The position numbers and the translations under genes were made by a program. DNA of 38,279 bases, from positions 1 through 38,279 of the forward strand of contig CAIQWB010000048.1 of NCBI GenBank assembly GCA_903875465.1, written 5' to 3'. This DNA is from an uncultured Verrucomicrobia subdivision 3 bacterium. Its GTDB lineage: Bacteria; Verrucomicrobiota; Verrucomicrobiia; Limisphaerales; UBA11358. The notes under the pieces are model-generated. The model did not search any database and was not told the DNA's origin. It saw only the letters and a list, made by a program, of their open reading frames with translations. Position 1 is the first letter of the stretch; the number at the start of each line of letters is the position of its first letter. Below are positions 1,357 through 33,504 of the stretch, in pieces.

Positions 1357-4113
1357 ATGAATTCTTCCCAACTAAACCTTTGGCCTGCCCGCAGCCCCAA
1401 ATCCCGCCGGACTTTGACCTGCCCATCTTTCCGCCTCCCCCAGCAAACCTTCGGTTGGCTGCTATTCAGTTTGGTCATCAGTCTATTTCGGGCGTCTGCG
1501 GCCGTCCTGCTGCTCCCCCCGCCGCCGCCCGCCATTCCGCCGCTGATTGGGGCCACCTATCCCAATGATACCGATGGCGATCATGTGGCAGACCAATTAA
1601 TGGTCCGCCTGCAACAAGCCGGCACCGCCCTGCAAACCGCCGGTTCCGCCACCCAAACCAATGCCGCCCAAGCCCGGCTCGACGCCCTGGTGGAGGTGGA
1701 ATTAGTCTTTCGCCAGCCAGTTACGCCAACCCAAATCAACACGTTCCTGGCTCTCGGCGGGGAAATTACCCATCTCTATAAAGCGGTTTCCTATGGCTGG
1801 AATGGGCGTCTGCCCTTGCGTTCCATTGGGCTATTACCCGCCCGGATGGGGGACTCCCTGGTGCTCGTGGAAGAGGCCAAATCCGCCGAATTGCACCTGG
1901 ATCTCGCTACCCAGACCGGCCGGGTTCGGCCAGTGTGGTCGCCCGGATTTGCCAGCAGCACCGCGGGCTTTGCCGGCAATTCCAACATCACCATTGCCAT
2001 TGTCGATTCCGGCCTGGATGCCACCCATGCCGACCTCGCGGGTCGTGGTGTTTTTTGGCAGGACTACTCCACGGATGCCGCCGCCAAGCCAGTGGATATT
2101 TCCCAGCATGGCACCTACGTAGGTTCCGTCGCCCTGGGCACCGGAGCGGCCAGTGGCAGCGGAACCGGCACCCTCTACGGCACGCTTTATGGCAGTCTCA
2201 GCGGAATATTCAGCAACAACTTTGTGGTCACCCCCATGACCCTGCCCACCAACCCCATCACCTTCACCGCCACCGCGCGCTGGAATGGCGGCGGTAATGG
2301 CAAACTGGAATTGCTCTCGCACAATCAAAACACCAAGACCGGTTACACCTTGGAAGGCAGCGCCGCCACCGGCCCTTCACCCTTGTCACTTAGTGTGACG
2401 GTCACCGGCAACCCCACCCGCGAGTATTCGCCCGCGCTCATCTCCAACGGTTCCATGACCGACTATGTCATCACCTACCAGGTGCCCCAATCCCCCGGCG
2501 TGGACAATTTCAACCGCCAGCGCGGCGTTGCACCCGGTTGCAATTGGGCGGCCGCCAAAGTCTTCGCCACCAACGGTAATAGTCTGCTGACCTGGGATTC
2601 CGCCGCCGTGGACGACCTGGTGGCCAATCGCGTGGCGGACAACATCAAGGTCATCAACCTGAGCCTCGGCGTCACCGGCACGCCGGGACTCTCCGCCACC
2701 ACCCGGCAAGTGGTAAATACCGCCGTCAACAACGGCATGCTGGTGACCGTTTCCGCCGGTAACAATGGCCTGTTCTCCCCCGGTAGCGCCGCGGCCGTCA
2801 GTGACCCCGGTCGCGCCGCCCTGGTTCTCACCGTGGCCGCCGCCAATGATATCAATCAGTTGACCGACTATTCGAGCCAGGGCTTCGGCTCCCCCGGCAC
2901 CGTCGCCGGGCAGGAGGAGGATTACAAACCCGACCTCCTGGCCCCCGGTGGTTCCAGTTATTATTCCGATGTCCTCGCCGCCGACAGTAATTCCGGCGAT
3001 GGCACCGCCTTTCCCGACCAGCAATCCAATGATTACTGGAGCATTCAGGGCACCTCCGTAGCCGCGCCCTTTGCGGCTGGGTGCGCCGCCCTGGTCATTG
3101 ATGCCTTGCAGCAAAACGGAATAACCTGGGATTTTACCTCCGCCCAATCGCCGCTCCTCGTGAAAATGCTGCTCTGCGCCACCGCCACGGAGACCACCAC
3201 CAACCGCGAGAATTCCCTCTATAATCCCTACTTGCAACGCGCCGCCGCTGGCACCAATGGCTTTCCCGCCGGCAAAGACCAGTTTGAAGGCTACGGCATG
3301 ATCAACCCCGACGCCGCTGTCGAAGCCGTCCAGCAAAACCTGGCGTTTGGCACCCCAAATACCTTTGTCCTCGGCCCCGGCCCCACCGATCCGCGCGCCT
3401 GGGCCTGCCATGTCAGCTTGCCCGCCAACGTCAACCTCGCCGTCAATCTAGCGGTGCCATCAACGGGCGATTTTGATTTGTATCTCTATCGCGCCGCTCC
3501 GGGACAGTATGGCAACCCCGTGATCCTGGCCGCCAGCACCTCGGCCGGCCTGGGGCAGAACGAATCACTTACCTGCCAGTCCCCCACCAACACCAACGCC
3601 TACCTCGTGGTGAAACGCGTCCGTGGCTCCGGCAGCTTTAGCCTCACCGGCAATGTGCCCCCCCAGGTGAATTTCTCCGCCGCCCCCCTGCGCGGCACGG
3701 CCCCATTGACCGTTACCTTTACCAACCTCACCCTCGGCAGTGGCACCTGCATCTGGGATTTCGGTGATGGCAATACCAGCACCAATTCCAACCCGGCCAA
3801 CCCCTACACCCGCAGTGGCACCTATACCGTCTCCCTCACCGTCAGCAATTCACTCGGCACCAGCACCCAGACGCAAACCAATTATGTAACCGTCATCACT
3901 CCCCCGGTCTTGCTTTCCCCCACCACCGATCAAACCAACCTGACCTTCACGTTTGCCACCTCCCCGGGACTCAACTACGTGATCCAGTACAAAACCGATC
4001 TGACGGACCCCAACTGGCAAACCCTCTCCACCCAACCTGGCGATGGCACCCTCCACCAATTCACCGAGCCCTTGTCCACCCCGCAACGCTTTTACCGCAT
4101 CCTGGTCCCTTAA
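1357..4113 (+). CDS. Secreted subtilisin-like (S8) serine protease with PKD domain
   Basis: This 918-residue secreted endopeptidase has a long basic N-terminus followed by a signal segment near residues 32-49 (FGWLLFSLVISLFRASA). The catalytic triad is visible: Asp217 in AIVDSGLD, His251 in QHGTYVG, and Ser567 in GTSVAAP. The oxyanion Asn is in VSAGNNG. Roughly 120 residues are inserted between the His motif and the usual GVAPG segment. After the protease comes a probable prepeptidase-type beta domain (about 670-765) and a PKD domain (about 769-847, with WDFGDGNTS). The final 65-residue module ends QRFYRILVP, a tail seen on many secreted Verrucomicrobiota proteins. It has no PEP-CTERM signal. 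The start is uncertain: no good ribosome site precedes the ATG, and an N-terminus of about 30 residues before the hydrophobic segment is long. Confidence 0.9.
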   Translation: MNSSQLNLWPARSPKSRRTLTCPSFRLPQQTFGWLLFSLVISLFRASAAVLLLPPPPPAIPPLIGATYPNDTDGDHVADQLMVRLQQAGTALQTAGSATQTNAAQARLDALVEVELVFRQPVTPTQINTFLALGGEITHLYKAVSYGWNGRLPLRSIGLLPARMGDSLVLVEEAKSAELHLDLATQTGRVRPVWSPGFASSTAGFAGNSNITIAIVDSGLDATHADLAGRGVFWQDYSTDAAAKPVDISQHGTYVGSVALGTGAASGSGTGTLYGTLYGSLSGIFSNNFVVTPMTLPTNPITFTATARWNGGGNGKLELLSHNQNTKTGYTLEGSAATGPSPLSLSVTVTGNPTREYSPALISNGSMTDYVITYQVPQSPGVDNFNRQRGVAPGCNWAAAKVFATNGNSLLTWDSAAVDDLVANRVADNIKVINLSLGVTGTPGLSATTRQVVNTAVNNGMLVTVSAGNNGLFSPGSAAAVSDPGRAALVLTVAAANDINQLTDYSSQGFGSPGTVAGQEEDYKPDLLAPGGSSYYSDVLAADSNSGDGTAFPDQQSNDYWSIQGTSVAAPFAAGCAALVIDALQQNGITWDFTSAQSPLLVKMLLCATATETTTNRENSLYNPYLQRAAAGTNGFPAGKDQFEGYGMINPDAAVEAVQQNLAFGTPNTFVLGPGPTDPRAWACHVSLPANVNLAVNLAVPSTGDFDLYLYRAAPGQYGNPVILAASTSAGLGQNESLTCQSPTNTNAYLVVKRVRGSGSFSLTGNVPPQVNFSAAPLRGTAPLTVTFTNLTLGSGTCIWDFGDGNTSTNSNPANPYTRSGTYTVSLTVSNSLGTSTQTQTNYVTVITPPVLLSPTTDQTNLTFTFATSPGLNYVIQYKTDLTDPNWQTLSTQPGDGTLHQFTEPLSTPQRFYRILVP

Positions 4114-4275
4114 CCGTTCTACTTGGCCCTGGTGATCAAGCCATTTTCCGAATAGCTGAAAAGCCACGCTGCGGCCCCTCAGGCAATGGACCGATAAGGG
4201 ACTGTGGCGGCATATCCTAATATTGGCGCCTTTTCCGCTTTGGCTGGACCGGGCGGCACTTTAGAATCCCGTCCG

Positions 4276-5835
4276 ATGTCGCAAATGTTAAAGTCTTCCG
4301 GCCTCATGGCCCTGGCCACGCTCACCAGCCGCATTCTCGGCATGGTGCGCGAAATGGTTTATGCCAGTTTCATGGGCGATGGCTGGGTGGCCGGGGCCTT
4401 TACCATGGCCTTCCAAATCCCCAACCTCTTCCGCCGCCTCCTGGGTGAGGGAGCATTGACGGCCGCCTTTATCCCCATTTTCAAAGAAAAGGAAAAGCTC
4501 CAGGGGGAGAAGGAAATGTGGCGCGCCGCCAATGCGGTGATTTCCGGCCTCATCATCTCCGCTTCGGCCATTATCGCCCTGGTGATGCTGGGCTTGACCA
4601 TCGCCTTGGCGATGCATCCCTTCGCGGCCAAAACGGAACTGATGCTCCGGTTGTTGCGGGTGATGTTTCCTTACATGCTGCCGGTGTGTCTCACGGCTAT
4701 TTTCATGGGGATGCTGAATGCCCGGGGCTTTTTCTTCGTGCCGGCCCTGGGGGCCACCATGCTCAATGTCGTCATGATCGCCTCCGTGCTCTGGGTGGCT
4801 CCACATTTTGGCCGCGAATTGCCCACGCAAATTTTCGCGCTCGCCCTTGGGGTGCTGGTGGCCGGCATTGCCCAGGGGGCGTTTCAATTGCCCACCTTGT
4901 TGCGAAATGGCTTTGCCTACCGTTGGGAAACCCCTTGGGGGAATGAAACCGTCCAGTTGGTTGTGCGCCGGATGGTCCCCGGCATGCTCGGCTTGGCGGC
5001 CTTCCAAATCAATGTGCTGATTACCCAGGTGATGAGTTTTTGGGTGGATCCGCATATTGTCGCCTCGTTCAATTACGCGGTACGACTCATGGAACTGCCG
5101 CAGGGGATGTTTGGCATTTCGCTCGCCACGTTTCTGCTGCCAGCGTTGTCCGGCCTGGCTGCGGAAAAGAAATTTCCCGAATTTCGCAGCACCCTTCGTC
5201 ACGGGATCGCGACCCTGCTGTTTGCCAACCTGCTCGCCGCCACGCTGCTGGTGGTCCTGGCGGAGCCGATCATCCGGCTGCTGTTTGAGCGGGGCGAATT
5301 TACCGCCCTCGCCACCCAGCGCGCCACCTGGGCGCTGGTTTGTCTGGCCCCCGGACTGATTGCCTTTTCCACCGTGAATGTGCTGGTGCGGGCCTTTTAT
5401 GCGCTGGGCGACACGCGGACACCCATGCGCATTAGCATCGTCTGCCTGGGGTTGAACCTGGCCATTGCCGCCATGCTGGTGGTGCCGTTGCATCAAGGTG
5501 GCCTGGGCATTGCCAATACCCTCACCTCCGCGGTGAACCTGGGCCTTTTGCTGTTTGCCTTGCGCAAGAAACTGGCGCGGCTGGAACTGGCCGAACTCCG
5601 CAAGACGCTCCTGCCGCTGGCCGCCGCCGCCCTGGCCGCCGGGTTGGTGGCTTGGGAAGGCTGGCGCTTATGGGAGGAAACCCTGGGACATGCGACGATC
5701 TGGTTGAAAATCGGCGCGGTGTTTGCCCCGGCGATCGCGGCCGGTGTGGTTTATGTGGTGATCACCCTGAGCTGTCAGGTCCCGGCGGCCCGGGAGATGG
5801 GCAATCTGCTCACCGCCCGGCTGCGCCGGAAGTGA
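4276..5835 (+). CDS. murJ: Lipid II flippase MurJ
   Basis: This 519-residue inner-membrane protein of the MOP superfamily moves lipid II across the cytoplasmic membrane for peptidoglycan synthesis. The N-terminus (MLKSSGLMALATLTSRILG, then VREM) and the segment QIPNLFRRLLGEGALTAAFI are the family's signature. The Arg residues of TSRILG and NLFRR and the motif RAFYALGDTRTP are all present. About 14 hydrophobic segments fill the rest. I chose the ATG at 4276 because it matches the usual MurJ start. A GTG 72 nt upstream would add a non-conserved extension. No strong ribosome site is visible. The gene converges with ispE, 69 nt away. Confidence 0.95.
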   Translation: MSQMLKSSGLMALATLTSRILGMVREMVYASFMGDGWVAGAFTMAFQIPNLFRRLLGEGALTAAFIPIFKEKEKLQGEKEMWRAANAVISGLIISASAIIALVMLGLTIALAMHPFAAKTELMLRLLRVMFPYMLPVCLTAIFMGMLNARGFFFVPALGATMLNVVMIASVLWVAPHFGRELPTQIFALALGVLVAGIAQGAFQLPTLLRNGFAYRWETPWGNETVQLVVRRMVPGMLGLAAFQINVLITQVMSFWVDPHIVASFNYAVRLMELPQGMFGISLATFLLPALSGLAAEKKFPEFRSTLRHGIATLLFANLLAATLLVVLAEPIIRLLFERGEFTALATQRATWALVCLAPGLIAFSTVNVLVRAFYALGDTRTPMRISIVCLGLNLAIAAMLVVPLHQGGLGIANTLTSAVNLGLLLFALRKKLARLELAELRKTLLPLAAAALAAGLVAWEGWRLWEETLGHATIWLKIGAVFAPAIAAGVVYVVITLSCQVPAAREMGNLLTARLRRK

Positions 5836-5904
5836 CGGAGGGATTCCAATTTTCACAGCCACGCTTTAGCGTCGCGGTGACCTCTTGAAGTTTGCGACTT
5901 GGCT

Positions 5905-6777
5905 TCAGACCGGCACCACGGCGGTCCAGCAGTTGCGGCCGAAAAAGGCCAGAAATTGCTCCCGGACCGTTTCAGCGATCGCAACGGTCTCAAAAATGGC
6001 AAACGTGGTGGAGCCGCTGCCGGACATCAGGGTGGCCAGGGCGCCGTATTCGCGCAAAAACTTCTGAAACACGTCGAGCACCGGATATTTATCCAGGGCG
6101 GGTGCCTCCAGGGAGTTATACATTTCCGACCGGATCGCGGCCCAATCCCAAGTTTGCAAGGCCGCGACCAATTGCTGGGCCCGACCGGGGCGGCCATTCA
6201 GTGCCTCGGGAAAACGCCCGAGGTTTTGGTAGGCCCAAGGGGTGGAAATGCCAAAGCCAGGATGGATCAAAAAGAAAGCCTTGCCCGTCATGGCCGGGAA
6301 ATCCGGGAGCGACTGCACTTTTTCTCCGCGTCCCGTGGCCAGGGCAGGCTTGGTTTGGAGGAAGAAATTGATATCGGAACCGAGACCGGCGGCCAGTTCA
6401 TCCAACTTATCCAAGCTTAGCGGCTGGCCAAAAATTTCGTTCAAACCCAATAGCGTGGTGGCGGCGTTGCCGCTGCCGCCGCCCAGGCCGGCAGCCATGG
6501 GGATGCGCTTTTCCAGATGAATAGCCACCCCGTCAGTAATCCCGGTGGCGGCAAGAAACGCCGTGGCGGCGCGATGCACGAGATTCCGGCCATCCACCGG
6601 CAGGCTGGCATCGCTGCAAGTCAGGCTGAGGCCACTGGCCGTGCGCGTAAAAGCGAGCTCATCGCATACCCGGACCGGCTGCATGATGGTTTCGAGTTCA
6701 TGGTAGCCATCCGGGCGGCGGCCGAGAATGTTAAGGATCAGGTTGACCTTGCAGGGGGATGACTTGATAAGGGACAT
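5905..6777 (-). CDS. ispE: 4-diphosphocytidyl-2-C-methyl-D-erythritol kinase
   Basis: This 290-residue GHMP kinase phosphorylates CDP-methylerythritol in the cytoplasmic MEP pathway to isoprenoids. Isoprenoids supply the undecaprenyl carrier used by the neighbouring MurJ substrate. Visible motifs are SPCKVNLIL with the substrate-binding Lys10, RRPDGYHELET, the ATP-binding loop AAGLGGGSGNAATTLLGLN and GSDINFF with the catalytic-type Asp. Length fits the family (about 280-300). The start at 6777 gives the canonical short N-terminus before SPCK. An upstream in-frame ATG at 6804 lies inside the terminator hairpin of the next gene and was rejected. PCK instead of the common PAK is a minor variation. 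Confidence 0.95.
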   Translation of the reverse strand: MSLIKSSPCKVNLILNILGRRPDGYHELETIMQPVRVCDELAFTRTASGLSLTCSDASLPVDGRNLVHRAATAFLAATGITDGVAIHLEKRIPMAAGLGGGSGNAATTLLGLNEIFGQPLSLDKLDELAAGLGSDINFFLQTKPALATGRGEKVQSLPDFPAMTGKAFFLIHPGFGISTPWAYQNLGRFPEALNGRPGRAQQLVAALQTWDWAAIRSEMYNSLEAPALDKYPVLDVFQKFLREYGALATLMSGSGSTTFAIFETVAIAETVREQFLAFFGRNCWTAVVPV

Positions 6778-6796
6778 GATGGGGGACAAAGCAAAA

Positions 6797-6821
6797 CGCG
6801 CCAACCATGACAGTTGGCGCG
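6797..6821 (-). terminator. Rho-independent terminator
   Basis: A perfect 9-bp stem, CGCGCCAAC (6797-6805) with GTTGGCGCG (6813-6821), has a 7-nt loop. On the minus strand it is followed by TTTTGCTTTG. It lies 31 nt past the stop codon of the leftward lipoprotein gene at 6852 and just before the ispE start, so it separates the two transcripts. Confidence 0.75.
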
Positions 6822-6851
6822 GATGGAAATCAACAAGGGGGTGCGTCGGTT

Positions 6852-7292
6852 TTAGTTGTCGAACACATGAAACCGACTGCCGGGAATAAACGGGGCCACA
6901 TCGCCGCCGCTGAAACCAGTGTAGGTGTCGGTGTCAAAGATTGGATCAGACATGCGTCCGGGGGTGTAGCTGGCCGGGAATACGGCGTTCGGGCTCAAAT
7001 AGTCGGTGCAAACGGGATCGTAGGAAGGAATCGGAAACGTGACGACCTCATACAGTCCGATGCCGGTGCGGGCGATCGAACGGTCAAATCCAGTCACCAA
7101 ACCCGTGGTAAAACTGGGGCCGCTGGGGTCGAAGATTTCGGCCTGCTCAATCGAGTGGCGCATTTCGCCCAGGCGGACGATTTCAAAAGTGTTGCTCAAA
7201 CCACGGCCCAGTTTTTGTTCGGGGCCGGCACAGCCGGTGCCCAGCGCAGCAGCGAGGGCAATCACAGCGAGAAAGGGAATGGCATGTCGCAT
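6852..7292 (-). CDS. TIGR04073-like exosortase-system-associated lipoprotein
   Basis: This 146-residue predicted lipoprotein has a signal peptide MRHAIPFLAVIALAAALGTG followed by Cys21 (lipobox LGTGC). The mature start, KLGRGLSNTFEIVRLGEMRH, resembles the family described as exosortase-associated TIGR04073, found in Verrucomicrobia and Lentisphaerae. Its biochemical role is unknown. The C-terminus is rich in Pro, Asp and aromatic residues (YDPVCTDYLSPNAVF, FSGGDVAPF). I chose the ATG at 7292 for the signal peptide. The frame stays open upstream to 7550 but that part overlaps tatC. It is consistent with the PEP-CTERM gene at 343-1014, though exosortase itself is not here. The family call is from memory of the motif. 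Confidence 0.7.
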   Translation of the reverse strand: MRHAIPFLAVIALAAALGTGCAGPEQKLGRGLSNTFEIVRLGEMRHSIEQAEIFDPSGPSFTTGLVTGFDRSIARTGIGLYEVVTFPIPSYDPVCTDYLSPNAVFPASYTPGRMSDPIFDTDTYTGFSGGDVAPFIPGSRFHVFDN

Positions 7293-7381
7293 ATCGTATT
7301 TTAGATGTTGAAAAAGCTTAGCCCGAATCCACCGGTTGTAAAGCGTGATTTTACTTTTTGGGCTGCCAATTTTGAAATTAC

Positions 7382-8377
7382 TTACGATTTCAATGCCCGC
7401 TTGCGGTCGCGCCATTCCCAGTACCAGGCAATCCAGACGGTGATTTCGTACAGGAGGTACAAGGGCACAGCCATTAGCACTTGAGTAAGCACTTCGGGGG
7501 TGGTCAGGAGGGCACCCAAAATGAGGTTGATGACGATCATGTAGCGCCACATGCTGCGCAGCATCGTGTAATTCAACACGCCCAGTTTGACCAGGGTGAG
7601 CAAAATGACCGGGAGTTCAAAGCCCAACCCCATGCCGAGCATAAATTTGCAGACGAAACTAATGTAGTCCTCCGCCCGCCATTCATAGGCCCCCAAACCG
7701 AGCCATTGGGAGTACCGCTGAGAGGCCTCAAGGGCAAATGGCATCAAACCAAAAAAGCAGAAGGCCACGCCCAACAGAAACAAGGCGGCCCCGATGAACA
7801 TCGCGCGGAAGATATGTTTTTTCTCGTGAATTTTGAGGGCGGGAAAAATAAAGGAGGTCAGGAAAAACAGGACAAAGGGTCCGGCGATGACCAACCCGCC
7901 ATAAATGGCCACTTGGAAGGCCACAAAAAAACCGCCGGCGGGGTTCAGGTTTACCAAATTAATATGCATCCGCTGGGCATCGGCGGCAATCGCGGGATCC
8001 GTGCTCACCTGCCAGCCGAGCACCTGGTTGGTGCCGATCCGCACGGGCTTGACTTCGACCGAGGAAAACTGGTTGCTGCCCACGTTCAAAAACGCGGCTT
8101 GTTCCGGGGAAAGGACGAATTTGCCGAGCTGGTTGGTGCCGTAGTTAATGACAACGATCTTTTCGGAGAGGGGATAACTCACCGAGGCCCGGGTCATGGG
8201 CCATTTGATAATTTGAATGACGTAGTTGGCGCCAATCAAACAAAGAAGCATGGCTACGCCGACGGCGACGGCACTTTTAACGAGCACCCAGCGGAAATCT
8301 TCCAGATGCTCGAGGAAATTTTTTACTGGTCCGCCCTCATCCGCATCAAAATCGGGCGTTTCGTCGTGGCTGGGCAT
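7382..8377 (-). CDS. tatC: Sec-independent protein translocase TatC with enlarged periplasmic loop
   Basis: This 331-residue (ATG at 8377) six-helix receptor of the twin-arginine translocase binds RR signal peptides and works with TatA. Diagnostic parts are FLEHLEDFRWVLVKS at the cytoplasmic N-terminus, SFIFPALKIHEKKHIF after helix 2, and FMLGMGLGFELPV in the fourth helix region. Ordinary TatC proteins have about 250 residues. Here the first periplasmic loop (about residues 62-150) is much longer, rich in Asn, Val and Gln. A TTG seven codons upstream (8398) would also be in frame, but the ATG is preferred. It lies downstream of tatA in the same direction with 88 nt between. MsrP in this window (31874-32854) is a likely substrate. 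Confidence 0.93.
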   Translation of the reverse strand: MPSHDETPDFDADEGGPVKNFLEHLEDFRWVLVKSAVAVGVAMLLCLIGANYVIQIIKWPMTRASVSYPLSEKIVVINYGTNQLGKFVLSPEQAAFLNVGSNQFSSVEVKPVRIGTNQVLGWQVSTDPAIAADAQRMHINLVNLNPAGGFFVAFQVAIYGGLVIAGPFVLFFLTSFIFPALKIHEKKHIFRAMFIGAALFLLGVAFCFFGLMPFALEASQRYSQWLGLGAYEWRAEDYISFVCKFMLGMGLGFELPVILLTLVKLGVLNYTMLRSMWRYMIVINLILGALLTTPEVLTQVLMAVPLYLLYEITVWIAWYWEWRDRKRALKS

Positions 8378-23645: not shown

Positions 23646-24260
23646 ATGGGCCGTGTCAGTGATGCCAAAGTCAGATTGATGGATGCCGTGCTGGAGTTGC
23701 TCTGGACGGGATCCTATGGCAGCACCACGATTGACCATATTTGCGAGCGGGCCGGGGTGAAAAAAGGCAGTTTTTATTACTTTTTCAATTCCAAAGCCGA
23801 CGTGGCCGTGGCTGCACTCGACACCAGCTTTCAAGCCCGGCGCGTGGAACTGGATGCCATGTTCTCCCCGTCGGTGCCGCCGACGGAGCGTATTCGCAAA
23901 TATTGCGAGTTTGGCTACCTCCTTCAGGTGGAAATGAAGGCTAAATTCGGGTATGTGCTCGGATGTCCGCTGTTTACTCTGGGCGCGGAGGTCTGCACGC
24001 AGGAGCAGGCCGTGGGGGCCAAAATCCAGGAGATTTTAGAGTACAAGGCGCGCTATTTCGAGACCGCCATTCGCGATGGTCATGCTGCGGGCGCGTTTCA
24101 CGCCCCGGATGCCGCCGCCAAGGCCCGGGTCGTCCGGGCCTATATCGAGGGTTTGTTGACCCAGGCGCGCATCCAGAACGATTTGGAAATTTTACGGGAG
24201 ATGCCCGAGGGCGTGTTTGCCATGCTGGGAGCCAGGTCCGTGAATGCCGTGACCGTTTAA
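23646..24260 (+). CDS. TetR/AcrR family transcriptional regulator
   Basis: This 204-residue regulator has an N-terminal helix-turn-helix (about 8-52): LMDAVLELLWTGSYGSTTID followed by HICERAGVKKGSFYYFFNSKADV. The GVKKGSFYYFF recognition helix is like that of NemR-type regulators. The C-terminal half (about 60-204) is the ligand-binding and dimer domain, with Cys residues (near GCPLFTLGAEVCTQEQ) that could sense electrophiles. It precedes the efflux/nitroreductase cluster in the same direction. Operator-like sites lie before this gene and before the next one, so it probably represses both. The ligand is unknown. Confidence 0.9.
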   Translation: MGRVSDAKVRLMDAVLELLWTGSYGSTTIDHICERAGVKKGSFYYFFNSKADVAVAALDTSFQARRVELDAMFSPSVPPTERIRKYCEFGYLLQVEMKAKFGYVLGCPLFTLGAEVCTQEQAVGAKIQEILEYKARYFETAIRDGHAAGAFHAPDAAAKARVVRAYIEGLLTQARIQNDLEILREMPEGVFAMLGARSVNAVTV

Positions 24261-24316: not shown

Positions 24317-24661
24317 ATGAAAACAAATCTTAACAAGTTAGAGTACTATGGTGAAAACCACCTGCCAACCCCCGCCACCGTGAGCCGTTGCGCCCAAGTG
24401 GCGGCCCAATTGGAGACGGCAAAAAACGTCGTTGCCGCGGAATTCAGCGGCCAGCTCGACGGCCATCCCACGATCTTGCGCCAGGCCTTGAGCGAGGCGG
24501 AAGCCCTGGCCTGGGAAACGAATTATCCCCACCTGGTCTTTGCCACCCTCGCCATGGAAAAAGCCCAAGCGGCGGTTACTTGGGAAAACCGCCAGCAATT
24601 ATTCACGCGCCACCGGCCCGCCCCAACCGCGCCCGCCGCCGCCCCCCTCGACCATGTTTAA
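24317..24661 (+). CDS. Small unknown protein of the efflux cluster
   Basis: I do not recognise this 114-residue soluble protein. It starts MKTNLNKLEYYGENHLPTPA. Residues about 22-80 are Ala/Glu-rich and helical (AQVAAQLETAKNVVAAEFSG), and the last 20 residues are Pro/Ala-rich and probably disordered. No signal peptide or membrane segment is seen. A good ribosome site (AGAGG) lies 4 nt before the ATG, unusual in this window, which supports real translation. It is the first gene after the second operator and 38 nt before the adaptor gene, so it is probably co-regulated with the pump. Confidence 0.7.
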   Translation: MKTNLNKLEYYGENHLPTPATVSRCAQVAAQLETAKNVVAAEFSGQLDGHPTILRQALSEAEALAWETNYPHLVFATLAMEKAQAAVTWENRQQLFTRHRPAPTAPAAAPLDHV

Positions 24662-24699: not shown

Positions 24700-25836
24700 A
24701 TGAACGCACCCGCCTTTCGCTTCGGCATTTCCGCTTTAACTCTGGCCGCCCTCGCCCTGATCACGGGCTGCTCCCCGCAGCCAGCGGCCCCATCCGCCCC
24801 GCCCGCCCCAGCCGTGACGGTGGCCCCGGTCTCTCAGAAGGAGATCGTGGAATGGCATGATTTCACCGGACGCACAGAACCCGTGCAATCCGTGGAAATC
24901 CGCCCGCGCGCGTCCGGCTACATCACCGAGGTGCGCTTTCAATCCGGACAACTGGTCAAACAGGGCGACGTGCTGTTTGTCATTGATCCACGGGATAACC
25001 AGGCGGTTTATGACCAGCGCAAAGCCGTGTTCGACCAGGCCCGCCGCGTGAATGAACGGACGGCCCAGTTGCTGGCCAACAAAGCTATCTCCACCGAGGA
25101 TGCGGATGCGCGCACAGCCCAGTTTGAGGAGGCTCAGGCCGCGTTGGAAACCGCGCGCTTAAATCTGGAGTACACCCAGGTGCGGGCGCCGATTGATGGC
25201 CGGGTGAGCCGGGCCTTGCTGACCCAGGGAAACTATGTGAGCGGGGTGGCCGGCAGCGCCTCGTTGCTGACGACCCTCGTTTCCGTCAATCCCGTTTATG
25301 TCTACGCGGATCTGGACGAGGCCTCGCTGTTGAAATTTAACGACCTGGTCTATGCCAAAAAACTGGGCACCAGCCCGGATGGCCGCGTGCCGGTGGAATT
25401 ACAACTAGGGGACGAAGTGGACTACCCCCATGCCGGTTTTATTGAATCCTTCGACAACCGGGTGGACCCGGAAACCGGCAGCATCTTGGTGCGCGCGGTG
25501 TTCCCCAATGAGGACGGACACATTTTGCCCGGTTTGTTTGCACGCCTCCGGCTGCCCTTGAGCGAGCGCCATGCGGCCTTGCTGGTGAATGAAAGCGCCA
25601 TTGGCACCGATCAGGCCGATAAATTCGTTCTCACCCTGTCCTCCACCAACACCGTGCAATATCGCCCGGTGAAATTAGGGCCCTTGGTCAACGGCCAGCG
25701 GGTCATCACCGAAGGCCTGTCCGCCGGTGAAAAAGTGGTGGTGAATGGCATGGCCCGGGTGCGTCCCGGCATGCCGGTGACTCCCGAGACGGCCACGGCT
25801 GCCCTCCCGCCCGTGACCACCACGGCCAAACGCTAA
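24700..25836 (+). CDS. RND efflux periplasmic adaptor lipoprotein (AcrA/MexA type)
   Basis: This 378-residue membrane-fusion protein joins the RND pump to the outer-membrane channel. The signal peptide ends at the lipobox LITGC with Cys24. The lipoyl/barrel-sandwich halves are SVEIRPRASGYITEVRFQSG and LEYTQVRAPIDGRVSRALL. The alpha-hairpin lies between (about 105-150), followed by the beta-barrel domain (VYADLDEASLLKF) and the membrane-proximal domain (NGQRVITEGLSAGEKVVVNG). The ATG at 24700 is chosen because it opens the signal peptide. The frame extends upstream to 24388 inside the previous gene. The pump gene follows after 19 nt. Confidence 0.95.
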   Translation: MNAPAFRFGISALTLAALALITGCSPQPAAPSAPPAPAVTVAPVSQKEIVEWHDFTGRTEPVQSVEIRPRASGYITEVRFQSGQLVKQGDVLFVIDPRDNQAVYDQRKAVFDQARRVNERTAQLLANKAISTEDADARTAQFEEAQAALETARLNLEYTQVRAPIDGRVSRALLTQGNYVSGVAGSASLLTTLVSVNPVYVYADLDEASLLKFNDLVYAKKLGTSPDGRVPVELQLGDEVDYPHAGFIESFDNRVDPETGSILVRAVFPNEDGHILPGLFARLRLPLSERHAALLVNESAIGTDQADKFVLTLSSTNTVQYRPVKLGPLVNGQRVITEGLSAGEKVVVNGMARVRPGMPVTPETATAALPPVTTTAKR

Positions 25837-25855: not shown

Positions 25856-28800
25856 ATGAATTTCTCGGATTTTTTCATCCGGCGGCCGATTTTTGCCGGC
25901 GTGCTGTCCATTGCTGTATTCATCATCGGCCTGCTGGCGATGTTTAAACTGCCCATCGCCGAATATCCCGAAGTGGTCCCGCCGACCATTGTGGTGCGCG
26001 CCACCTACCCGGGGGCCAACCCCAAAACCATCGCGGAAACGGTGGCCTCCCCCCTTGAACAGGCCATCAATGGTGTGGAAGGCTCGCTTTACATCTTTTC
26101 CCAGGCCACCGGGGACGGCGTGCTCACCACGACCGTGACCTTCAAGCTCGGCACCAATCCCGACGAGGCCCAGGTGCAGGTGCAAAACCGGGTGGCCCAG
26201 GCCCTGCCCAAACTCCCCGAGGAAGTGCGCACGCTGGGGGTCACCACCACCAAACAATCGCCGGACCTCACCATGGTGGTTCACTTGTTCTCGCCGGATG
26301 GCCGCTACGACGACGTTTACCTGCGGAATTACGCCACCCTCCAGGTCAAGGATGCCCTGGCCCGCATCCCGGGCGCGGGCGATGTCGAACTCTTCGGCTC
26401 CGGCGATTACGCCATGCGCATCTGGTTGAATCCCGACAAAATTGCGGCGCGCAACCTCACCGCCAGCGATGTGGTGAATGCCATTCGCGAACAAAATGTG
26501 CAAGTGGCCGCCGGCGTGGTCGGCCAGCAACCCGTGCATGACCCGGTCAATTTTGAAATGGCCGTAAACGTCAAGGGCCGCCTGATTTCCGAGGAGGAAT
26601 TCGGCCAGATCGTCGTCAAAACCGGCACCAACGGCTCCAAGACCCTGCTTAAAGATGTGGCCCGCATTGAACTCGGCGCCGGTAGCTACTCGCTCCGCTC
26701 GCTGCTCAATAACAAATCGGCGGTCGCCATTCCCATTTTCCAATCCCCCGGGGCCAATGCCTTGCAATTGTCCCAGGATGTCCGCGCCAAGATGGAGGAA
26801 CTGAAGAAAAACTTCCCCGAGGGTGTGGATTACTCCGTCGTTTATGATCCCACTGTCTTTGTGCGGCATTCCATCGAGGCCGTGCTGCACACCCTGGCCG
26901 AGGCCATCCTGCTGGTAGTCATTGTCGTGATTTTGTTCCTGCAAACCTGGCGGGCGGCGATCATTCCACTCGCGGCCGTGCCCGTATCGCTGGTCGGCAC
27001 CTTCAGCGTCATGCTCCTGCTGGGTTTTAGTATTAACGCCCTCTCGCTCTTCGGTCTGGTGCTGGCCATCGGCATTGTCGTTGATGATGCCATCGTCGTG
27101 GTCGAAAACGTCGAGCGTAACATCGCCCTGGGGCTGACTTCCCTCGAAGCCGCGCGCCGGGCCATGCGCGAAGTCACCGGCCCCATTGTGGCCACGGCCT
27201 TGGTCTTGTGCGCAGTGTTCGTGCCCACCGCTTTCATTAGCGGACTGACCGGCCAGTTCTACAAGCAATTCGCCCTGACGATTGCCATTTCCACCGTGAT
27301 CTCCGCGTTCAATTCCCTCACCCTGTCACCGGCCCTGTGCGCCGTGCTGCTGCGCAATCATCATGATCCCAAGGACCGGCTCACCCGGGTCATGGATGCC
27401 TGCTTCGGCTGGTTTTTCCGGCCCTTCAACCGCGCCTTCGCCTGGGCGGGCGAACGGTATTCGAGCGGCGTTAATCAAGTGCTCCGCAAAAGCTTTGTGG
27501 CCCTCGTGCTCTACGCCGGACTGGTCGTCCTCACCGGCTGGAGTTTCAACCAGGTCCCGACCGGCTTTGTGCCCTCGCAGGACAAACAGTATCTCGTGGC
27601 CTTTGCCCAGTTGCCGGACGGCTCGTCCCTCGACCGGACCGAGGCCGTTATCCGCCGCATGTCGGACATTGGTTTGAAGACCCCCGGCGTGGAGGCCTCC
27701 GTGGCCTTCCCCGGCCTGAGCATCAGTGGTTTTAGTGTGGCCCCCAATGCGGGCATCGTGTTTTTCACGCTCAAACCGTTTGACGAACGCACCACCTCCG
27801 ACCTCAGCGGGCCCGCCATCGCCGCCGCGCTGAACCAAAAACTGTCGGTCATTCAAGACGCCTATGTCCTCGCCGTGCCGCCCCCCGCGGTGATGGGATT
27901 GGGCACCATTGGCGGCTTCAAGCTGTATGTCGAGGACCGTGCCGACCTCGGGTACGACGCCCTCTATGCGAACTTGCAAGGCATCATCGGCAAGAGTTAC
28001 CAAACGCCCGGGCTGGCCGGGGTGTTTTCCATGTTCACCGTCAATGTGCCGCAATTGGACGCCGACGTGGACCGCGTGAAGGCCAAAACCCAGGGCGTGC
28101 CACTGGCCAACCTGTTTGAAACCCTGCAAATCTACCTGGGTTCGTTGTATGTCAATGACTTCAACCGCTTCGGCCGCACCTACGAGGTGTTCGCCCAGGC
28201 CGACGCCCCGTTCCGGGCGCATGCAGCGGACATCACCCGGCTCAAGACCCGCAATGATCAGGGCCAGATGGTCCCCCTGGGTGCCCTGGTGAAAGTCACC
28301 GAATCGCACGGCCCCGATCGGGTGATGCGCTACAACGGTTATCCCGCAGCGGAGATTAACGGCGCCCCCGCGCCTGGCTACAGCTCCGGCCAGGCGGAGG
28401 CGGCGATGACCCAAGTCGTGGAAAGTTCCCTGCCCCGCGGACTGGCCTATGAATGGACCGAACTTACCTACCAGCGCATCCTTGCCGGCAACACGGCGGT
28501 GTATGTCTATCCCCTGTGCTTGTTGTTCGTGTTTCTTGTGCTGGCCGCGTTATATGAAAGTTTCCGGCTGCCGCTGGCCATCATCCTGATTGTGCCCATG
28601 TGCCTGCTGTTTGCCATTGCGGGCGTCTGGCTCAAGCACAGCGACAATAATATTTTCACGCAGATCGGCCTGATCGTGCTCGTCGGCCTCGCGTGCAAGA
28701 ACGCCATTCTCATCATTGAATTTGCCAAGCAAAAGCAAGAGGAGGGCGTGCCGCCCTTGGAAGCCGCCTTGGAAGCCTGCCGCCTCCGCCTCCGGCCGAT

Positions 28801-30520
28801 TCTCATGACCTCCATTGCTTTCATCGCCGGGGTGTTCCCGCTGGTGGTGGCCCACGGGGCCGGCGCGGAAATGCGCCAGGCCATGGGTATTGCCGTGTTC
28901 TCCGGCATGATCGGCGTGACGGTGTTCGGGCTGTTTCTCACCCCGGTATTTTATGTCACCCTGATGAATCTCGGTTCCCGCAAAAAGGCTGCTGCGACCA
29001 CGCCCCCCGTCGTACCCGTGGCCACGGGCGGGGCGGTCGTCAGCTTGTTGTTCCTGGGCCTGCTCGGCACCTCCCTCGCCACCCACGCCGGCCCGCTCAC
29101 CGTGGGACCAGACTACCAACCCCCCACCAACGCCCTGCCCGCCCACTTCAAGTCCCTCGTCCCCGGCCAATGGCAGGAAGGCAAACCCCTCGATCAGGTG
29201 CCCAAAGGCAATTGGTGGGAAATTTTTGGCGATGCGTCGTTAAATTCCCTGGAGGGCCAGGCCGTGGCCGCCAGCCCGGATTTGCAGGGCGCCCTCGCCC
29301 GGCTGGATCAGGCCCGCGCCACCGCCCGGGTTTCCCGCGCCAGCCTGCTGCCCAGCGCCAGCCTCGACCCCAGTTTCGAGCGCCAGCGTTATTCACCCAA
29401 TGCCAGCCCCAGTTTTGGCAACCTCACCGCCAGCAGCCTCAGCACCCCGCTGGATCTGAGTTATGAAATCGACCTCTGGGGCCGCGTGCGCCGGGGGTTT
29501 GAAAGCGCCCATGCGGATGCCCAGGCCAGTCTGGCCGTTTATTACAACACCCTGCTCAGCCTGGAGGCCAATGTCGCCCAGGATTATTTTTCCCTGCGGT
29601 CGCTGGATGCCGAAATCGCCACCGTCACCAGCACCGTGGCGCTGCGCCATGAACAGGTCCAGCTGGTGCGCAGCCGCTATGAGGGGGGTATCGGTAACGA
29701 ACTCGACGTGGCCCAGGCGGAAACCGAACTCGCCACCACCGAGGCCGATGCCGCCGCCCTCGCCCGGCAACGCGACCAACTGGAAAATGCCCTGGCCATC
29801 CTGGCCGGCCAGAACCCCGCCGCTTTCCATTTACCCGCGCTGCCCGAGTCTAATCTTAACTGGCATCCCCAGCCACCCGTCATTCCCGCCGGCCTGCCCG
29901 GCGACCTCTTGCAACGCCGCCCGGACGTGGCCGCCGCCGAACGTCAACTCGCCTCCGCCAATGCCAAAATCGGCGTCGCCAAAGCGGCCTTTTTCCCGGT
30001 GTTGACGTTGACCGGTTCGGGTGGTTTCCTAAGCGGCGACGTGGACTCCTTGTTTAACTGGAATAGCCGCACTTGGTCCATTGGCCCGAGCCTGTCGCTG
30101 CCCATCTTTGCCGGTGGGCGCAACCGGGCCAATTACTCACGCTCCCAGGCGGCCTATGCCGAGGCGGTCGCCCACTACCGCCAGTCGGTGCTCGTGGCTT
30201 TCAGCGATGTGGAGAATAGCCTCTCCGATATCCGGCACCTGACGGACCAGGCCGCCGCCCAGGAGCGGGCGGTGGATAATGCCCGGCATGCCGCCGACCT
30301 GGCCACCGATCGCTATCGTTCCGGCATCGTCGCTTACCTCACCGTGGTGGACGCCGAACGTGCCGCCCTCGAAAATGAACGGGCCAACGCCCAACTGGCC
30401 GGCCAGCGCTTGATCGCCTCCGTCCAACTCATCAAGGCCCTCGGCGGCGGCTGGCAGGCCGCCCCGGCGCTCACCCGCGCCGACACCGCCCCCACCCCCG
30501 CTTTGTCGCCCTCCCACTGA
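25856..30520 (+). CDS. Fused RND efflux permease (AcrB type) and outer-membrane factor (NodT/TolC type)
   Basis: One open frame of 1554 residues contains two normally separate proteins. Residues 1-1040 are a complete HAE1 permease: FFIRRPIFAGVLSI at the start, the proton-relay Asp410/Asp411 in GIVVDDAIVVVENVER, and Lys948 in LACKNAILIIEFAKQ. Residues 1079-1554 are an outer-membrane efflux protein: VGPDYQPP, NWWEIFGDASLNSLEGQA, DLSYEIDLWGRVR, and LLQRRPDVAAAERQLASAN. Between them a basic segment (SRKK, about 1040) precedes a hydrophobic stretch (about 1061-1075, VVSLLFLGLLGTSLA) and THAGP, which looks like an internal signal sequence. The lipid-anchor Cys usual in NodT proteins is absent. No stop or frameshift signal separates the halves. 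Confidence 0.93.
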   Translation: MNFSDFFIRRPIFAGVLSIAVFIIGLLAMFKLPIAEYPEVVPPTIVVRATYPGANPKTIAETVASPLEQAINGVEGSLYIFSQATGDGVLTTTVTFKLGTNPDEAQVQVQNRVAQALPKLPEEVRTLGVTTTKQSPDLTMVVHLFSPDGRYDDVYLRNYATLQVKDALARIPGAGDVELFGSGDYAMRIWLNPDKIAARNLTASDVVNAIREQNVQVAAGVVGQQPVHDPVNFEMAVNVKGRLISEEEFGQIVVKTGTNGSKTLLKDVARIELGAGSYSLRSLLNNKSAVAIPIFQSPGANALQLSQDVRAKMEELKKNFPEGVDYSVVYDPTVFVRHSIEAVLHTLAEAILLVVIVVILFLQTWRAAIIPLAAVPVSLVGTFSVMLLLGFSINALSLFGLVLAIGIVVDDAIVVVENVERNIALGLTSLEAARRAMREVTGPIVATALVLCAVFVPTAFISGLTGQFYKQFALTIAISTVISAFNSLTLSPALCAVLLRNHHDPKDRLTRVMDACFGWFFRPFNRAFAWAGERYSSGVNQVLRKSFVALVLYAGLVVLTGWSFNQVPTGFVPSQDKQYLVAFAQLPDGSSLDRTEAVIRRMSDIGLKTPGVEASVAFPGLSISGFSVAPNAGIVFFTLKPFDERTTSDLSGPAIAAALNQKLSVIQDAYVLAVPPPAVMGLGTIGGFKLYVEDRADLGYDALYANLQGIIGKSYQTPGLAGVFSMFTVNVPQLDADVDRVKAKTQGVPLANLFETLQIYLGSLYVNDFNRFGRTYEVFAQADAPFRAHAADITRLKTRNDQGQMVPLGALVKVTESHGPDRVMRYNGYPAAEINGAPAPGYSSGQAEAAMTQVVESSLPRGLAYEWTELTYQRILAGNTAVYVYPLCLLFVFLVLAALYESFRLPLAIILIVPMCLLFAIAGVWLKHSDNNIFTQIGLIVLVGLACKNAILIIEFAKQKQEEGVPPLEAALEACRLRLRPILMTSIAFIAGVFPLVVAHGAGAEMRQAMGIAVFSGMIGVTVFGLFLTPVFYVTLMNLGSRKKAAATTPPVVPVATGGAVVSLLFLGLLGTSLATHAGPLTVGPDYQPPTNALPAHFKSLVPGQWQEGKPLDQVPKGNWWEIFGDASLNSLEGQAVAASPDLQGALARLDQARATARVSRASLLPSASLDPSFERQRYSPNASPSFGNLTASSLSTPLDLSYEIDLWGRVRRGFESAHADAQASLAVYYNTLLSLEANVAQDYFSLRSLDAEIATVTSTVALRHEQVQLVRSRYEGGIGNELDVAQAETELATTEADAAALARQRDQLENALAILAGQNPAAFHLPALPESNLNWHPQPPVIPAGLPGDLLQRRPDVAAAERQLASANAKIGVAKAAFFPVLTLTGSGGFLSGDVDSLFNWNSRTWSIGPSLSLPIFAGGRNRANYSRSQAAYAEAVAHYRQSVLVAFSDVENSLSDIRHLTDQAAAQERAVDNARHAADLATDRYRSGIVAYLTVVDAERAALENERANAQLAGQRLIASVQLIKALGGGWQAAPALTRADTAPTPALSPSH

Positions 30521-31873: not shown

Positions 31874-32854
31874 GTGAGCGACCCCAATAAAATATCCGAG
31901 CGCGAAGTCACCGACCCGGCGGTTTACTTCAACCGCCGGCAATTCCTCCAGACCGGCCTGCTCGCCGCCAGCGCCGTCGCCACCGGCCTCGCGTACCGCC
32001 AGCTCAACCCCACTTCGACCGGCTCTGTCACCACCGCCCCGCTTGCCCACCTCGTCACCCCGGCCGCCACCACCACTGTCGATAATGGCTTCCGCGCCAC
32101 CGAGCCGCCCACCTCCTTCGCGAACATCACTCACTACAATAATTTTTACGAGTTCTCCACCGACAAGGAAGCCGTCGCCGCCGCCTCTGCAAAATTCGAC
32201 ACCAAAGGCTGGCAGGTGTCCGTCGCAGGCTTGGTGAACCATCCCCGTGTATTCGATCTCGATGACCTCCTGAAAATCAGCCCGCCCGAGGAACGCATCT
32301 ACCGCATGCGGTGTGTCGAAGGGTGGTCCATGGTCGTCCCGTGGGCAGGTTATTCCCTCTCCAAGCTGCTCGCCCTGGTTGAACCCCTGGGCAGTGCCCG
32401 CTATGTGGCCTTCGAATCCCTCCTTGATCCCCAGCGCATGCCCGGCCAGCGCGGCGAAGTGCTGAACTGGCCCTACGTGGAAGGCCTGCGCCTGGATGAG
32501 GCCATGCATCCGCTCACCCTGCTGGCCAGCGGCCTTTACGGTCGCGCCCTGCCCCCGCAGGATGGCGCGCCCCTCCGCCTCGTCACCCCGTGGAAATACG
32601 GCTTCAAAGGCATTAAATCCATCGTCAAAATCAAGCTGGTCGCCGAACAACCCCGCACCACTTGGAACGAGGCCGCCCCCAATGAATACGGCTTCTATGC
32701 CAATGTGAATCCCGAAGTGGACCACCCCCGCTGGAGCCAGGCCACGGAACAGCCCATTGGCAAATCCGGCCGGCAGCCCACCCTCCTGTTCAATGGCTAC
32801 GCCGCCCAAGTCGGGCATTTATACGCCGGCCTCGACCTCCGCGCCAATTTCTGA
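31874..32854 (+). CDS. msrP: Protein-methionine-sulfoxide reductase catalytic subunit MsrP
   Basis: This 326-residue periplasmic molybdopterin enzyme repairs oxidised methionines of exported proteins. The Tat signal is [19 protein letters not shown] (residues 20-38). Cofactor binding is shown by Cys147 in [19 protein letters not shown], the single Mo-ligand of this family. Other matches are [18 protein letters not shown] and [18 protein letters not shown]. Start is a GTG at 31874, supported by AAGGTG 9 nt upstream. The gene for the haem partner MsrQ follows after 5 nt. TatA and TatC encoded at 7382-8732 would export it. Confidence 0.95.
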
Positions 32855-32859
32855 CCGGC

Positions 32860-33504
32860 ATGAAAGCCAACGATCTGCGCTTCGCCCAATGGTTCGTGCT
32901 CGTGAATGCCGCCGTGCCCGGCGCGCTGCTTGCCTGGGATGCCGCGCACCGCCAGCTCGGCGCCAACCCCGTCAATTTCGCCATCCTCACCACCGGTCTG
33001 CTCGCCCTGATTTTCCTGCTCCTGACCCTGCTCGTCACCCCGCTGCGCAGCCTCACTGGCTGGAACTGGATCATCTTTTCCCGGCGCACCCTGGGCCTCT
33101 ATGCCTTCTTTTATGCGGCGGCTCATTTCCTCATCTTTTTCTTTCTGGATCGCGGTGGCAACCTCGCCAGCACGCTGTCTGAAATGGTCAAACGCAACTA
33201 TTTAATTGTCGGCAGCCTCGGCTTGTTCGTCATGTTACCGCTGGCCGTCACCTCCACCAACGCCATGATCAAGCGCCTCGGCGGCCAGCGCTGGCGCGCC
33301 CTGCACCGCCTTACCTACATCGCCGCCATCGCCGGCGTGATCCATTACTACATGCAGTCCAGGAAAGACGTCCGCCAGCCCCTCGCCTTCGCCGCCATCC
33401 TGGTCCTCCTTCTCGGCTACCGCCTGCTCGTCGCCGCCCGCAAATCCCAATCCGCCCCCGTCAAAGCCGCCGCTGCAAAACCCTCCTCCACCCGGCCAGC
33501 TTGA
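32860..33504 (+). CDS. msrQ: MsrP haem-binding membrane subunit MsrQ
   Basis: This 214-residue inner-membrane cytochrome b-type protein (YedZ family) passes electrons from the quinone pool to MsrP. About six hydrophobic helices are visible. The haem-binding His residues are in FYAAAHFLIFF and in WRALHRLTYIAAIAGVIHYY. TRRTLGLYAF-type sequence (here SRRTLGLYAFFYAAAHF) is the family signature. It is paired with msrP and separated by only 5 nt. The tail is Ala/Lys-rich and not conserved. Confidence 0.93.
   Translation: MKANDLRFAQWFVLVNAAVPGALLAWDAAHRQLGANPVNFAILTTGLLALIFLLLTLLVTPLRSLTGWNWIIFSRRTLGLYAFFYAAAHFLIFFFLDRGGNLASTLSEMVKRNYLIVGSLGLFVMLPLAVTSTNAMIKRLGGQRWRALHRLTYIAAIAGVIHYYMQSRKDVRQPLAFAAILVLLLGYRLLVAARKSQSAPVKAAAAKPSSTRPA

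Follow-up and report, generated by a model that had tools for sequence, protein, structure and literature searches.

RND pumps are textbook three-protein machines. In the window analysed here (the whole stretch of 38,279 nucleotides), two of the three parts of such a pump, which belong to different membranes, are encoded in one chain. The question that this locus raises is how a single polypeptide can supply both an inner-membrane permease and an outer-membrane channel, and whether the two halves stay joined. The frame lies on the forward strand at 25856 to 30520 and reads 1554 residues from ATG to stop without interruption. Its first half (residues 1-1037; 25856 to 28966, forward strand) is an HAE-1 RND permease. 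Pfam ACR_tran (PF00873) matches residues 3-1036 with 1184 bits and covers model positions 1-1020 of 1021. The half passes NF000282 (1462 bits against a cut-off of 1250) and the HAE-1 model TIGR00915 (1170.9 against 940.35), and it does not reach the CusA/CzcA heavy-metal RND model TIGR00914 (352.5 against 701.45). Its best NCBIfam model is OqxB, where it stays under the cut-off (1465.2 against 2200), and its top PDB chain is 8yr0, named "Cation/multidrug efflux pump". Among the matches listed (60 of 98 PDB chains), the best-aligned stretch always falls within this half.

The second half (residues 1079-1554; 29090 to 30517, forward strand) corresponds to a mature NodT/OprN-like outer-membrane channel. 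The NCBIfam model TIGR01845 (outer_NodT) matches residues 1083-1532 with 436.8 bits (cut-off 210.05) over model positions 12-460 of 460. The best PDB chains for this half are an OprJ-like chain, OprM, OprJ and OprN, and the OprJ-like, OprM, OprN and CusC chains match with E values from 1.4e-63 to 1.1e-51. The original prediction of a full AcrB-like permease followed by a full NodT/TolC-like channel in one frame is thus borne out by the open reading frame, Pfam and NCBIfam. Both halves are complete, and the permease end proposed is moved slightly, to about M1037 (ATG at 28964). Each half departs from its family at the join. An HAE-1 permease is normally a separate protein with a cytoplasmic C-terminus after the last helix, whereas here 517 residues extend beyond M1037. 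A NodT/OprN channel normally carries its own N-terminal signal peptide and a lipobox Cys, whereas here the signal is internal. T1082 pairs with residue 2 of the OprN chain in the alignment, which places L1081 at what we take to be the position of OprN Cys1. The channel does lack the lipid Cys, as had been proposed.

The surrounding genes are those of an efflux pump. A TetR-family regulator (23646 to 24260, forward strand; PF00440 and PF16925) lies upstream of the pump genes and shares their strand. It is followed by a MexE/OqxA-like periplasmic adaptor (MFP) at 24700 to 25836 on the forward strand, with its own lipobox LITGC; the start is taken at 24700, and the longest ORF there opens at 24388. 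The adaptor scores 259.8 bits with TIGR01730 (cut-off 94.9), and it remains below the cut-offs of MexE, its best NCBIfam model (354.7 against 714), and of OqxA (282.6 against 835). The cluster is MexEF-OprN-like in gene content, with the last two genes fused. It shares with MexEF-OprN and OqxAB-type HAE-1 pumps the order adaptor-permease-channel and the same domain families at full length. It differs from them in having permease and channel in one frame, an internal signal, a channel without the lipid Cys, and scores under the OqxB, MexE and OqxA cut-offs. Further along the window, two ORFs at 31874 to 33504 resemble, as judged by eye, a methionine-sulfoxide reductase pair (MsrP/MsrQ type).

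The junction between the halves has the layout of a signal peptide. Residues 1038-1057 (28967 to 29026, forward strand) form a cytoplasmic linker and a basic n-region with SRKK. They are followed by a hydrophobic core at about residues 1058-1072 (29027 to 29071, forward strand), which is short, about 11-15 residues, and has a 19-residue mean hydropathy of 2.22. The c-region SLATHA (residues 1073-1078; 29072 to 29089, forward strand) satisfies the (-3,-1) rule, which predicts cleavage by signal peptidase I (SPase I) after A1078. The most likely cut is A1078/G1079, between nucleotides 29089 and 29090 (THA/G, residues 1076-1079; here and below a slash marks the cut). A hydrophobic stretch flanked by SRKK and THAGP had been proposed at residues 1061-1075. 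The flanks stand, with SRKK from residue 1041 and THAGPLT from residue 1076, and the core is shifted to about 1058-1072. The host genome encodes SPase I (PF10502) at two places and LspA (PF01252) at two places.

The suspicion that similar fusions exist elsewhere proved correct. Fused frames were found in relatives by searches of 59 genomes, 245 of the order and 387 of the phylum, and stop-to-stop frames at 227 loci were read with two profiles seeded from the two halves of this protein. These loci held 65 distinct fused junctions, a count that is not a frequency because the loci were picked by similarity, many of them for looking fused. Within the first 181 loci there were 53 of the 65, from 60 frames. 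Contig ends truncate some of the 65, and the count includes L180, of which only the last 147 permease residues lie in the fused frame. The fused forms include close relatives, two further HAE-1 clades (one at about 50% and one at about 39% identity), and the distant L159 at about 33%. One fused locus (L115) carries a Planctomycetota label; it comes from a metagenome bin, and the label may be wrong. Loci labelled Proteobacteria gave no permease and channel in the same frame, and for some of them no channel was found in reach. RND genes near this family also occur in bins labelled Klebsiella pneumoniae (L099) and Akkermansia muciniphila (L117), and these labels too may be wrong.

Across the 65 junctions, linkers of differing sequence and of 33-55 residues keep the layout of a signal peptide. 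Every junction has a net positive charge ahead of the hydrophobic core, and the best 12-residue mean hydropathy ranges from 1.96 to 3.03. Directly before the xGPDY-like motif of the channel, a signal-peptidase-type site is present in all 65. Thirty-four of the sites, that of this gene among them, are SPase I-type. All 34 satisfy the (-3,-1) rule at one fixed offset, with Ala at -1 in 31, while between 0 and 14 of them do so at any other offset between -6 and +5. At offset +6 the rule again holds in 32 of the 34, which we ascribe to the invariant GP motif in the channel. The remaining 31 junctions are lipobox-like, and all 31 have Gly at -1 of a Cys that lies 1 or 2 residues ahead of the motif. 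The strict lipobox [LVI][ASTVI][GAS]C is found in 13 of the 31 and missed by 18, and the wider pattern [LVIFM][ASTVIGN][GAS]C is found in 26. This Cys falls at what we take to be the lipidated Cys of OprN. By alignment, it also coincides with the lipidated N-terminal residue of CusC and OprM (PMC3017539, in excerpt). That the sites of two different enzymes occupy one position has no easy explanation if the chain is not cut at this point. All 65 junctions thus combine an internal signal with a conserved cleavage-type site, as would a signal-processed polyprotein.

The gene very probably encodes a polyprotein that is separated by signal peptidase, that arose through loss of a stop codon, that has been gained and lost repeatedly, and that probably yields an ordinary tripartite pump. 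From the fused frame and its conservation, from the cleavage-type motifs kept at the junctions and from the recurrence of the fusion we infer the following course. The ribosome would first make a 12-helix RND permease with its C-terminus in the cytoplasm. A short basic linker would then lead into the former N-terminal signal peptide of the channel, now internal, which would insert with its N-terminus in and its C-terminus out and start export of the channel by Sec. SPase I would cut after A1078, and the core of the signal would stay on the permease as a short thirteenth membrane segment. The released OprN-like channel, unlipidated, would go to the outer membrane. In the relatives with a lipobox, Lgt and LspA would perform this step and yield a lipoprotein channel. 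Pump and channel would be made 1:1 and would then join the adaptor encoded upstream, which is MexE-like, in an ordinary tripartite efflux pump.

Among the other explanations, the one that survives best places the start of the channel inside the frame. The channel would then be translated mainly from M1037 (ATG at 28964) with a signal peptide of its own, 42 residues long, and the open frame would be a by-product of overlapping genes. Most near relatives also have an ATG there. Start codons were surveyed at the 53 junctions that had been found first, over the stretch from 8 residues before the permease end to about 12 before the channel domain. An ATG lies near the junction in 42 of the 53, and an ATG, GTG or TTG in 51. 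The anti-Shine-Dalgarno (anti-SD) energy is -3.1 kcal/mol at 28964 and +0.7 kcal/mol at the gene start, which at face value favours the internal ATG. These energies discriminate weakly, however, as the genuine gene start itself scores poorly. In two fused loci, L115 and L151, the stretch contains neither ATG nor GTG nor TTG, and internal initiation cannot account for these two. Four more (L036, L145, L146 and L153) have one candidate start each, with weak anti-SD energy. A Met at the same place is part of the permease in the unfused L032, L162, L164 and L168, so it is not linked to fusion. The frame is open in all 65 junctions despite linkers of 33-55 residues, whereas unfused neighbours are distributed over the three possible relative frames (30, 18 and 33 of 81). 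We consider it improbable that the channel is made mainly in this manner. Internal initiation may add to read-through, and it is unlikely to replace it.

The signal-processed polyprotein also has to be weighed against a chain that is never cut, since the original prediction had left the choice between a cleaved polyprotein and a covalently fixed pump. In the latter, residues 1058-1072 would be a permanent thirteenth helix that ties pump and channel together for good. The single frame agrees with this, and the core, with its mean hydropathy of 2.22, is sufficiently hydrophobic to form a membrane segment. Pump and channel have equal stoichiometry, which would permit a fusion. The core, on the other hand, is only about 11-15 residues long, and a permanent anchor has no need of the signal-peptidase-type sites kept in all 65 junctions. 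Geometry is a further obstacle. The spacer from the core to T1082 has about 10 residues (1073-1082), which at 0.36 nm each span less than 4 nm when stretched. The intermembrane distance in MexAB-OprM is given as 23 nm (excerpt of PMC4754349). Cys1 of CusC is described in the inner leaflet of the outer membrane, so that the N-terminus of an outer-membrane factor (OMF) would be found at the outer membrane (excerpt of PMC3017539), and the helical barrel of OprM is stated to reach more than 100 A into the periplasm (excerpt of PMC4790312). On these excerpts, about 10 residues could not bridge the way from the inner membrane to the OMF N-terminus, and an uncut chain would be incompatible with a normally assembled pump. 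Of the two outcomes originally offered, cleavage is strongly favoured by the motif at 65 of 65 junctions, and a fixed pump is very unlikely on grounds of geometry. An error of sequencing or assembly that conceals a stop codon or frameshift, which had been named as the finding that would undo the fusion and which the draft state of the source genome (153 contigs, 96% complete) might suggest, has a negligible chance, because like fusions at 33-89% identity occur in many independent assemblies, three of which are listed as a single contig (genomes G132, G349 and G454, with loci L149, L217 and L223).

The unfused relatives suggest how a signal-processed polyprotein of this kind could come about. 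Unfused pairs in Acinetobacter (annotated adeF and adeH) and in Verrucomicrobia encode the same two proteins side by side, but with a stop and a separate start between them. At L144, L155-L158 and L160, permease and channel share a frame, and a single stop separates them. The N-terminal signal-peptide sites of unfused channels resemble the internal one: STAFA/GILTVGPDY in L164 and LPAIA/GPFTVGPDY in L181, against ATHA/GPLTVGPDY here. The unfused permease tails inspected are polar and have no hydrophobic segment, with the exception of L165 and the contig-cut L039. The simplest history would be loss of the stop between in-frame neighbours, by which the signal peptide of the channel was buried. 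The permease of L165 (frame 2994-6369), which lies near the fused clade, has at its tail a basic region, a hydrophobic core and the residues GAHA, as the fused proteins do, but no channel in frame; it may be a fusion in the course of breaking up.

The lipid Cys does not follow the fused state. Among 68 distinct unfused channel genes adjoining a permease, 49 have a lipobox and 19 have none by the same pattern. Most of these 19 have SPase I-type sites by eye, and in L156 the pattern missed a Cys. A link between fusion and a missing lipid Cys was rejected, as the Cys is present in 31 of 65 fused junctions and absent from several unfused Verrucomicrobial relatives. Eight unfused Verrucomicrobial channels without the lipid Cys (L048, L068, L071, L073, L077, L081, L182 and L194) have Gln directly after the likely SPase I cut (A/Q). 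This pattern recalls the Q-rule of Bacteroidetes (PMC5837995, in excerpt).

A tree of 200 permease sequences requires the fused state to change at least 14 times. The contig-cut L033, L166, L167 and L196 are left uncounted there, and L039 is scored as fused since its cut-off tail ends in a lipobox. This tree replaced an earlier one of 156 rows, which gave 16 changes with contig-cut tips scored as unfused. A single origin of the fusion was rejected on a set of 38 hand-chosen rows, where placing the fused rows in one clade gave a p-AU of 2.65e-67. The same set needs 10 changes, 8 of them forced by well-supported branches. The fused label is weakly clustered on these chosen rows, with 10 changes against a shuffled mean of 12.5 and 48 of 500 shuffles as low. 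The fusion thus appears to have been both gained and lost several times.

The nearest precedent known to us is FbcH, the cytochrome b/c1 polyprotein of Bradyrhizobium japonicum, which reportedly consists of a polytopic protein and an exported protein in one frame that signal peptidase splits at an internal signal. The second product of FbcH is said to stay in the inner membrane, whereas here that product is a channel of the outer membrane, with a lipobox in many relatives. A natural RND-OMF fusion was not described in the open-access literature searched (titles and abstract openings), and annotated database records of such fusions may well exist. A broader reading seems to us probable, with less confidence than the cleavage of this chain: that this is a recurrent polyprotein holding the parts of one trans-envelope machine for both membranes, split by SPase I or by Lgt and LspA according to lineage, with an outer-membrane lipoprotein arising from the C-terminal half of an inner-membrane protein and with an enforced 1:1 ratio. 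If so, a lipoprotein signal preceded by more than 1000 residues of polytopic protein must be acceptable to Sec, Lgt and LspA. The fusion would be a natural means of fixing the pump-to-channel ratio and could serve as a scaffold for studies of tripartite pump assembly. For annotation it is a warning, as a single "RND permease" of about 1500 residues may represent two mature proteins.

One fusion of this type was also found among the heavy-metal RND permeases. CusA-CusC fusions are said to occur in Bacteroidetes. Three plasmid loci (two from Bacteroidota and one from Rhodothermota) have separate genes, and only the Rhodothermota locus is CusA-type. In L231 (G384:C11:95084-106158), the frame at 2710-7479 joins a CusA/CzcA-type RND permease to an OMF. 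The join here too has a basic stretch, a core and, by eye, the SPase I-type site PVAQA/ADARG. This is the sole frame longer than 1300 residues among the heavy-metal RND matches listed for the phylum (E <= 1e-250).
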